Below, one piece after another: positions 4,487-34,798 of a DNA stretch of 35,359 nt (the stretch's first letter is position 1; each line of letters starts with the position of its first letter). This DNA is from a bacterium. Lineage in GTDB: Bacteria > BMS3Abin14. A model generated the notes under the pieces. It was given only the letters and a program-made list of their open reading frames with translations, was not told the origin of the DNA and made no database searches. Position numbers and translations under genes: made by a program. The DNA lies in NCBI GenBank assembly GCA_029210545.1, contig JARGFV010000006.1, positions 4,213-39,571 of the forward strand, written 5' to 3'.

Positions 4487-6541
<2,055 letters not shown>

Positions 6542-6542
6542 C

Positions 6543-6605
6543 AAGGGGGAAGGTGCAAGTGGAAAGCAAACGCTTTTTCTTTCCACCTTCCACTTTCCTC
6601 TTTCC
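6543..6605. repeat. Inverted pair of 7-bp-period arrays (AAGNNNN / NCTTTCC)
   Basis: Left side: AAGGGGG, AAGGTGC, AAGTGGA, AAGCAAA (6543-6570). Right side: TCTTTCC, ACCTTCC, ACTTTCC, TCTTTCC (6578-6605). Each unit is exactly 7 bp and the two sides are roughly complementary, so the RNA could fold into a long imperfect hairpin between ligA and fdhD. Confidence 0.8.
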
Positions 6606-6623
6606 ACTCATATCGGAGAAGAG

Positions 6624-7412
6624 ATGAGTAACGAAAAATCCCTTGACAGAGAAGTCGTCCAGATTGACGGCAATAAAGCTGAAGTCACCCAGCGGTCCGT
6701 CGTCCGGGAACTCCCCCTTACCATCACCATCAACGGCAAGGAGTTCATCACCCTGCTCACCACCGGGGACGCCAACAGGGAACTCACCGTCGGTTTCCTT
6801 CTTTCCGAGGGGTTCCTGAAAAAAAAGGAGGACCTCGTGGACATCCGTGTGGACGATGAGGCAGGGTCTGTGGAGGTGACCCTCGCCGGCGATGTCCAGA
6901 TGATGGAAAAGCTCTGGAACAAGCGGGTGGTCACATCCGGCTGCGGAAAGGGCGCCACCTTCTATCACGTCCTCGACTCCCTCCAGGCAAGCCCGGTCAC
7001 TTCGGACCTTGCGGTCACCCCGGACGAGATCCATTATCTCATGAAGGAGCTGCACCGCAGGTCGGAGCTTTACAGGGGGACCGGGGGCGTCCATAACAGC
7101 TGCCTCGCCGACCGGGAGGGGATCCTGGTTTTTCGTGATGACATCGGGCGGCACAACGCCGTGGACAAGATCCGGGGGGTCTGTTTCCTCGAGGGGATCG
7201 ACCTGGCCGACAAGATCCTGGTTACGACCGGCCGGATGTCTTCGGAGATCGTGATCAAGGTGGCCAAGATGGGGGTTCCGATCCTGGTGTCGCGGTCGGC
7301 TCCCACGAGCCTCGCCCTCGACCTGGCCCAGAGGTCCGGGTTGACTCTCGTGGGCTACGTGCGGGGGGAGAAGATGACGGTGTATACGGGGAAAGAACGA
7401 ATCCGGTATTAG
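6624..7412 (+). CDS. fdhD: FdhD-type sulfurtransferase for formate dehydrogenase maturation
   Basis: A 262-residue FdhD-family protein that in characterised systems passes sulfur from a cysteine desulfurase to the molybdenum cofactor of formate dehydrogenase. Family segments visible: RELPLTITING near 28, TGDANRELTVGFLLSEG near 47-63, VTSGCGKGATF near 103-113, RGTGGVHNSCL, FRDDIGRHNAVDKI, TTGRMSSEIVIKVAKMGVPILVSRSAPTSLA (near 205-235). The E. coli enzyme has a Cys pair in the loop after strand VTS; here only one Cys (about 107) is in that loop, a variation also possible in shorter homologues. The ATG at 6624 follows GGAGAAGAG. No formate dehydrogenase is in the window, so the client must be encoded elsewhere. 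Confidence 0.93.
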   Translation: MSNEKSLDREVVQIDGNKAEVTQRSVVRELPLTITINGKEFITLLTTGDANRELTVGFLLSEGFLKKKEDLVDIRVDDEAGSVEVTLAGDVQMMEKLWNKRVVTSGCGKGATFYHVLDSLQASPVTSDLAVTPDEIHYLMKELHRRSELYRGTGGVHNSCLADREGILVFRDDIGRHNAVDKIRGVCFLEGIDLADKILVTTGRMSSEIVIKVAKMGVPILVSRSAPTSLALDLAQRSGLTLVGYVRGEKMTVYTGKERIRY

Positions 7413-7414
7413 TG

Positions 7415-7654
7415 TCCCCTTCGGGGATGGTGGAAACCCCTCGCCTTCAGGCGAAGCAGGTTTTCCTGAAGTCCCCGAAGGGGACGATGGTTTGCCATCC
7501 CCCGACTGAAGTCGGGGGGATTCCGGCGATGGATTGTAATTTGAAGTACCGCCGTCTGAAGACGGCGGTATCAAGTGGCGCTTCAAGTCGAATTCATTCA
7601 ACGCGCCACTTCAAGCCCTCGGCTTACAGCCGAGGGTCTAGCTGACTCGAGACC
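7415..7654. repeat. Field of at least seven tandem short palindromes with different stems
   Basis: No gene is present. The stretch is a chain of short hairpins: 7415-7427, 7441-7454 (TCGCCTTCAGGCGA), 7471-7485 (GTCCCCGAAGGGGAC), 7499-7518 (CCCCCGACTGAAGTCGGGGG), 7548-7569 (10-bp stem, CTGAAG centre), 7573-7611 (8-bp stem AAGTGGCG), 7616-7636 (CCCTCGGCT stem) and a weaker one at 7635-7654. Stems differ completely but are perfectly self-complementary, while several centres are CTGAAG or TTCA. A lone relative is at 26282-26297. It lies between convergent genes and could terminate both. Confidence 0.85.
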
Positions 7655-7663
7655 GGATTCGTT

Positions 7664-7699
7664 CGTGCATGAAGTGCATCAAGTGCATGGAGTGCAGGA
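7664..7699. repeat. Four tandem 9-bp units (GTGCATGAA type)
   Basis: GTGCATGAA, GTGCATCAA, GTGCATGGA, GTGCAGGAA in direct succession. An inverted, degenerate set of similar 9-mers (TCCTGCACT, TCCTGCCCT, CATGCACCT) occurs at about 7985-8011, so the two arrays bracket the small gene at 7768-7926. Confidence 0.7.
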
Positions 7700-7767
7700 A
7701 GAGGGTCTCCTTGCACAGGTACCCCGCCAGATTAGCGGGTGCACTTTTGCACTCGTGCACTGATTTT

Positions 7768-26281: not shown

Positions 26282-26297
26282 GCGGACTGGAGTCCGC
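26282..26297. repeat. Single palindrome of the 7415-7654 type
   Basis: GCGGACTGGAGTCCGC: 7-bp stem, two central bases. Same design as the hairpins at 7415-7654. Confidence 0.6.
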
Positions 26298-34733: not shown

Positions 34734-34740
34734 CTACCTG

Positions 34741-34791
34741 GGAGCCTGTCGGAGAACCTCCCTGTTTTTTAACAGGGAGGGCACAGACTCC
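34741..34791. repeat. TGTCGG-type palindrome with nested hairpin
   Basis: GGAGCCTGT (34741-34749) pairs with ACAGACTCC (34783-34791) at 8 of 9 positions. Inside, CCTCCCTGTT (34757-34766) and AACAGGGAGG (34771-34780) pair perfectly. Its first 16 bases repeat the element at 28562. Confidence 0.75.
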
Positions 34792-34798
34792 TGGGAGC

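Follow-up and report, generated by a model that had tools for sequence, protein, structure and literature searches.

A chain of unlike hairpins downstream of fdhD that is very probably a single non-autonomous IS200/IS605-family element

IS608 and ISDra2 transpose as single-stranded DNA: TnpA binds hairpins near the two ends of the element, the cleavage sites are recognized by pairing with guides, and a circle forms that inserts 3′ of the target (PMC5934647, PMC7290912). The target/guide pairs of IS608 are TTAC/AAAG at the left end and TCAA/GAAT at the right end (PMC5934647). Palindrome-associated transposable elements of IS605 type (PATEs), as defined in PMC3119063, are known in Haloquadratum (PMC3119063) and Halanaerobium (PMC7290912). 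The window analyzed here is a stretch of bacterial DNA of 35,359 nucleotides in which an earlier note had described a chain of independent hairpins with different stems and similar centers, belonging to no known class and preserving base pairing rather than sequence.

Extent, copies and hairpins of the unit

When the assembly that contains the window (G000; 2.72 Mb, 241 contigs) was searched, positions 7409–7647 emerged as one repeated unit present at about nine loci. Three copies are full-length and lie on three contigs (98–100% identity): that of the window, one on contig C20 that is 100% identical to it over 239 bp, and one on C77 that is 98% identical. Six further places carry partial copies, two of them truncated (C55 and C19) and four being right halves of the unit broken off by contig ends. 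The partial copies at contig ends lie at C6:1, C50, C53, C87 and C93, the nine-locus count treating C93 as the other half of one cut copy. The flanks of the copies are wholly unlike one another beyond TTAG at the left end and GAC(T) at the right. The two ends of the unit (TTAGTGTCCCC and GCTGACT) do not form an inverted repeat, and target duplication was absent from the flanks of the three full copies. At 239 bp the unit is too short for a transposase gene; the sole long open reading frame across it in the window runs antisense to fdhD. The mobile unit and its hairpins are as follows.

7413–7646, + strand: mobile unit, 234 bp after the TTAG target, delimited from copies and flanks; right end uncertain by 1 nt
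7414–7427, + strand: H1, CCCC-TTC-GGGG, a short hairpin with an alternative pairing with H3 possible
7441–7454, + strand: H2, TCGCCT-TC-AGGCGA, conserved in the left ends of the family
7471–7485, + strand: H3, GTCCCC-GAA-GGGGAC, interior, exact inverse of H1
7499–7518, + strand: H4, interior, center CTGAAG, no relative outside G000
7547–7570, + strand: H5, interior, center CTGAAG, no relative outside G000
7573–7611, + strand: H6, bulged, AAGTGGCGC...GCGCCACTT with inner GTCGAAT/ATTCRAC, 9-bp arms
7616–7636, + strand: H7, terminal right-end hairpin CCCTCGGCT-TAC-AGCCGAGGG, 9-bp stem and 3-nt loop

Seven hairpins were thus located within 7415–7636, in agreement with the seven to eight counted earlier, but only five of them are perfect as had been claimed (7441–7454, 7471–7485, 7499–7518, 7547–7570 and 7616–7636; arms of 6–11 bp), one being short and one bulged. 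These hairpins are real and far beyond chance: the unit holds 5 palindromes with 41 bp of arms (1,000 dinucleotide shuffles: mean 0.44, maximum 4), no other 240-base tile of the window is as rich in palindromes as the one containing it, and its folding as single-stranded DNA gave a z of about -10. The similarity of centers was borne out in part. CTGAAG is the true center of two hairpins (7506 and 7556) and CTTCAG that of one (7445), but the others are centered on TAC, TTC/GAA or a longer loop. The supposed lone relative at 26282, GCGGACTGGAGTCCGC, is a plain 7-bp palindrome of which about 80 like examples occur in the window; it has no sequence similarity to the unit and is not homologous to it.

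In all copies of the assembly the hairpins and their order are the same and the stems nearly identical, and the whole stretch was copied as one unit, contrary to the view of the hairpins as independent. The check that had been proposed, covariation of stems between copies, revealed few stem differences within this assembly, all of them uncompensated; 7565G>T and 7631C>T in the C77 copy, for example, change stems without compensation. Position 7600 is A only in the window copy and G in every other copy spanning the site.

The interior hairpins H3–H6 were kept in all three full copies, and for the interior at 7458–7575 neither a relative in other genomes nor a match to known IS ends was found. 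By the complementarity of their arms, H1 and H3 could pair around H2. It is unlikely that H3–H6 are functional cargo, for example through an H1–H3 stem enclosing H2 that would switch access of TnpA, or as a structured transcript.

Ends, targets and guides in related elements

The left end of the unit (7409–7457, 49 bp) was 94–96% identical to IS200/IS605 left ends in other genomes: G031, G061, G066, G067 and G068, all five from a different phylum, plus G371 and G242. The match in G031 is the left end of a complete element, L028, whose intact 154-aa TnpA sits between the shared left end and a matching right end. This protein matched Pfam Y1_Tnp (2e-40) and the NCBIfam IS200/IS605 transposase (transpos_IS200; 2e-41), and its relatives in the PDB include ISHp608. 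The right end of L028 consists of a hairpin with a 9-bp stem followed by TAGTTGAGT, and that of the window unit of a hairpin with a 9-bp stem followed by TCTAGCTGACT. Three further elements (L111, L112 and L118) have both ends and no transposase, and in L130 a left and a right end are fused into roughly 60 bp. The layout of H7 is common to L028, L111, L112 and L118, and H6 matches, by position, the penultimate right-end hairpin of the relatives. H2, conserved as it is, is probably the left-end hairpin recognized by TnpA.

When the terminal right-end hairpin was compared among the window, C77, L028, L111, L112 and L118, 4 of the 9 pairs had two-sided changes and pairing was 100%; alignment in shifted registers yielded at most one covarying pair. 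The four-base signals beside the hairpins are listed below.

7409–7412, + strand: left cleavage and target site TTAG, four bases of host DNA containing the fdhD stop codon TAG
7434–7437, + strand: left guide AAAC at the 5′ foot of the left-end hairpin, covarying with the fourth target base
7612–7615, + strand: candidate right guide CAAG, last base complementary to the motif TGAC
7643–7646, + strand: right cleavage motif TGAC, followed by T, from the right-end copies in G000

TTAG was present at all four left ends in the assembly, each with different flanks, while the left target of the relatives is TTAN. The target/guide pair is TTAG/AAAC here, and TTAA/AAAT and TTAT/AAAA in relatives; all three pairs occur together in one genome, G066. 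Under a fixed parsing rule anchored on the left-end hairpin, the fourth target base was complementary to the fourth guide base in 15 of 16 distinct left ends, and the sixteenth, the decayed L136, fits (TTAA/AAAT) when read at the family spacing. Guides shuffled among targets reached equal complementarity once in 200,000 trials, a figure that ignores relatedness. As read from these sequences, the IS608 left-end guide code applies to the unit and its relatives. The idea that pairing rather than sequence is preserved therefore holds between genomes, where the terminal hairpin and the guide/target pairs covary, but not among the copies in the window's own assembly.

GCTGAC(T) closes all right-end copies in the assembly except C87 (GCTGCC(T)), and the right ends of relatives read TTGAG(T)/TTCAG(T). 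The right motifs of the relatives end in G and their guides mostly in C, the decayed L129 being an exception; the other right-guide positions do not follow the IS608 pattern throughout.

BLAST found the unit in no other genome of the same phylum, although L136, from the same family as the host, carries a decayed tnpA related to that of L028 and has a TTAA/AAAT left end. Plasmids yielded no match to the unit, phages none to the L028 insertion sequence, and viral contigs none to the exact left-end pattern. Separately, eleven near-identical TTAA/AAAT left ends were observed in G067 (L113, L116, L119, L120 and L122–L128); since all lie at contig ends, they suggest that an IS200/IS605 element was amplified recently and breaks the assembly. 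Because very similar left ends carry three target/guide pairs in several phyla, as the IS608 code predicts, the family lends itself naturally to the study of DNA-guided target choice.

The insertion site and candidate transposases

In the window the unit is inserted directly after the stop codon TAG of an open reading frame that, from its sequence, we take to be fdhD. The features of the host locus are the following.

6513–7412, + strand: fdhD open reading frame, start as listed, ending at the target site; relatives found by tblastn
7395–7407, + strand: left arm of a host hairpin, perfect 13-bp inverted repeat with 7652–7664
7652–7664, + strand: right arm of the host hairpin, pairing with 7395–7407 and split off by the insertion

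When the window flanks were joined, they formed GAACGAATCCGGT...ACCGGATTCGTTC, a perfect hairpin of 13 bp whose loop contains the fdhD stop codon (-17.8 kcal/mol, z -5.3). The best fdhD relative, L031 (protein 70% identical), represents a homologous empty locus: its fdhD likewise closes with a hairpin, AACGAGTCCTGC...GCAGGACTCGTT, arranged in the same way, which has the stop codon in the loop and lacks an insert. The stems of the two fdhD-end hairpins differ (window 7395–7664; L031 about 1908–1945) and pairing is kept. Directly after this hairpin the window has a tandem 9-bp repeat, GTGCATGAA/GTGCATCAA/GTGCATGGA (7665–7700), and a similar GTGCAG-rich stretch also follows fdhD in L031. On C20 the copy precedes a metallo-hydrolase-like gene, whose start codon is about 40 bp further on. 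L028 is likewise inserted in a hairpin loop, and eight other sites are not; a preference for hairpin targets was rejected, as only 2 of 10 joined sites fold well (the window and L028).

The assembly yielded no intact TnpA of the matching subfamily. Given that the assembly is 97.5% complete and breaks at repeats, this is weak evidence. The Y1 proteins present are two, an IS200-type TnpA on C27 and a REP-associated one on C150. The C27 element was rejected as the parent of the unit, its ends being different and its TnpA 40% identical to that of L028; at best it would be a helper in trans. An autonomous parent on C19 was likewise discarded, only a 40-bp right end being present there, as was a TnpB/omega RNA unit, no match to PF07282 (TnpB) having been found in the assembly. 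The unit is probably mobilized in trans by a TnpA that was not found intact in this assembly.

Two other palindromic repeats of the genome were observed in the window. A double palindrome at 7–110 (GCAAAAAGTCC.. and GGAAAGCGAAAA..) belongs to a dispersed family of at least 40 copies (80–100% identity), some of which repeat in tandem near the window start. A second repeat, GTCGGAGAACCTCCCTGTT-TTTT-AACAGGGAGGGCACAGACTCC at 34736–34792, occurs about 30 times or more in the genome; in another genome (L033), fdhD is followed by a unit that resembles it but has a somewhat different stem. The C150 protein (L022:1429-2118) is a REP-associated tyrosine transposase (NF047646) that may mobilize one of these two abundant families.

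Identity of the unit and comparison with known systems

The unit is very probably a non-autonomous IS200/IS605-family element, a PATE, that has kept the left and right ends required by a Y1 (HUH) transposase, TnpA, and has no gene of its own. Every testable PATE feature was found in it: terminal inverted repeats and target duplication are absent, it is too short for a transposase, palindromes lie near both termini (H1/H2 and H7), and its ends are related to those of an IS605-type transposon (L028, with covariation of the right-end hairpin). In addition, and as in the IS200/IS605 family, it is inserted 3′ of a fixed tetranucleotide paired to a hairpin-foot guide. It is a new example of an already-known kind of element.

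By analogy with IS608 and ISDra2, a TnpA acting in trans would bind H2 on the left and H7 on the right when the strand is single-stranded. Each four-base guide beside these hairpins would pair with its cleavage site, the host-derived TTAG on the left and TGAC on the right, and the unit would leave as a single-stranded circle to enter 3′ of another TTAG. In the window, insertion in this way would have placed it within the hairpin loop at the end of fdhD, right after the stop codon.

The very strong folding (z -10), the position downstream of fdhD and the near-identity of the copies would also suit a domesticated structured RNA or transcription terminator, used at many loci, whose hairpins act in transcripts. 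This is very unlikely, however: no Rfam match above the gathering score was found, the context is mixed (3′ of fdhD in the window, before a start codon on C20), insertion occurred at a fixed TTAG and split a host hairpin, and the ends of the unit match a TnpA-bearing element. The agreement of the ends of the unit with classical IS200/IS605 elements, guide/target pairing included, also argues against a REP/REPIN (BIME) cluster spread by a REP-associated tyrosine transposase such as that of C150. A RAYT-type protein (NF047646) is indeed encoded in the genome and the palindromes do stand in series, but they form one 239-bp unit of fixed order and boundaries, single palindromes are not dispersed alone, and about nine copies do not make a high-copy palindrome of 20–40 bp; such a cluster is highly improbable. 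The new kind of array originally envisaged, of independent hairpins with freely diverging stems, draws on the differences among stems within the unit and almost certainly does not exist here, the stems being fixed between copies, their changes uncompensated and the unit copied as a whole.

Identification of the unit as a PATE removes the apparent mystery, in that hairpins that differ from one another and stand in a row can together make up one IS200/IS605-derived element. Nor is the design foreign to every known class, as had been supposed: IS200/IS605 elements and PATEs have subterminal hairpins with different stems and similar centers.

Among described systems, the REP/REPIN/BIME sequences with their RAYTs resemble the unit in being palindromes moved by Y1 transposases; the unit, in contrast, is 239 bp long, has two distinct ends, is inserted at TTAG and has a low copy number. 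PATEs are, like the unit, short, repeated in the genome and without transposase, terminal inverted repeats or target duplication, and have the near-terminal palindromes common to IS605-type elements. The unit differs from them in its several extra interior hairpins and in that no intact helper of the same subfamily was seen in its assembly. IS608 (ISHp608) and ISDra2 have neither the target TTAG nor the terminal hairpin stems of the window unit, which itself lacks tnpA and tnpB. They nonetheless share with it a left target tetranucleotide, a guide at the 5′ foot of the left hairpin and a right hairpin plus cleavage motif; their TnpA is homologous to that of the full-length relative L028, and the guide code is the same (TTAC/AAAG in IS608, TTAG/AAAC in the unit).
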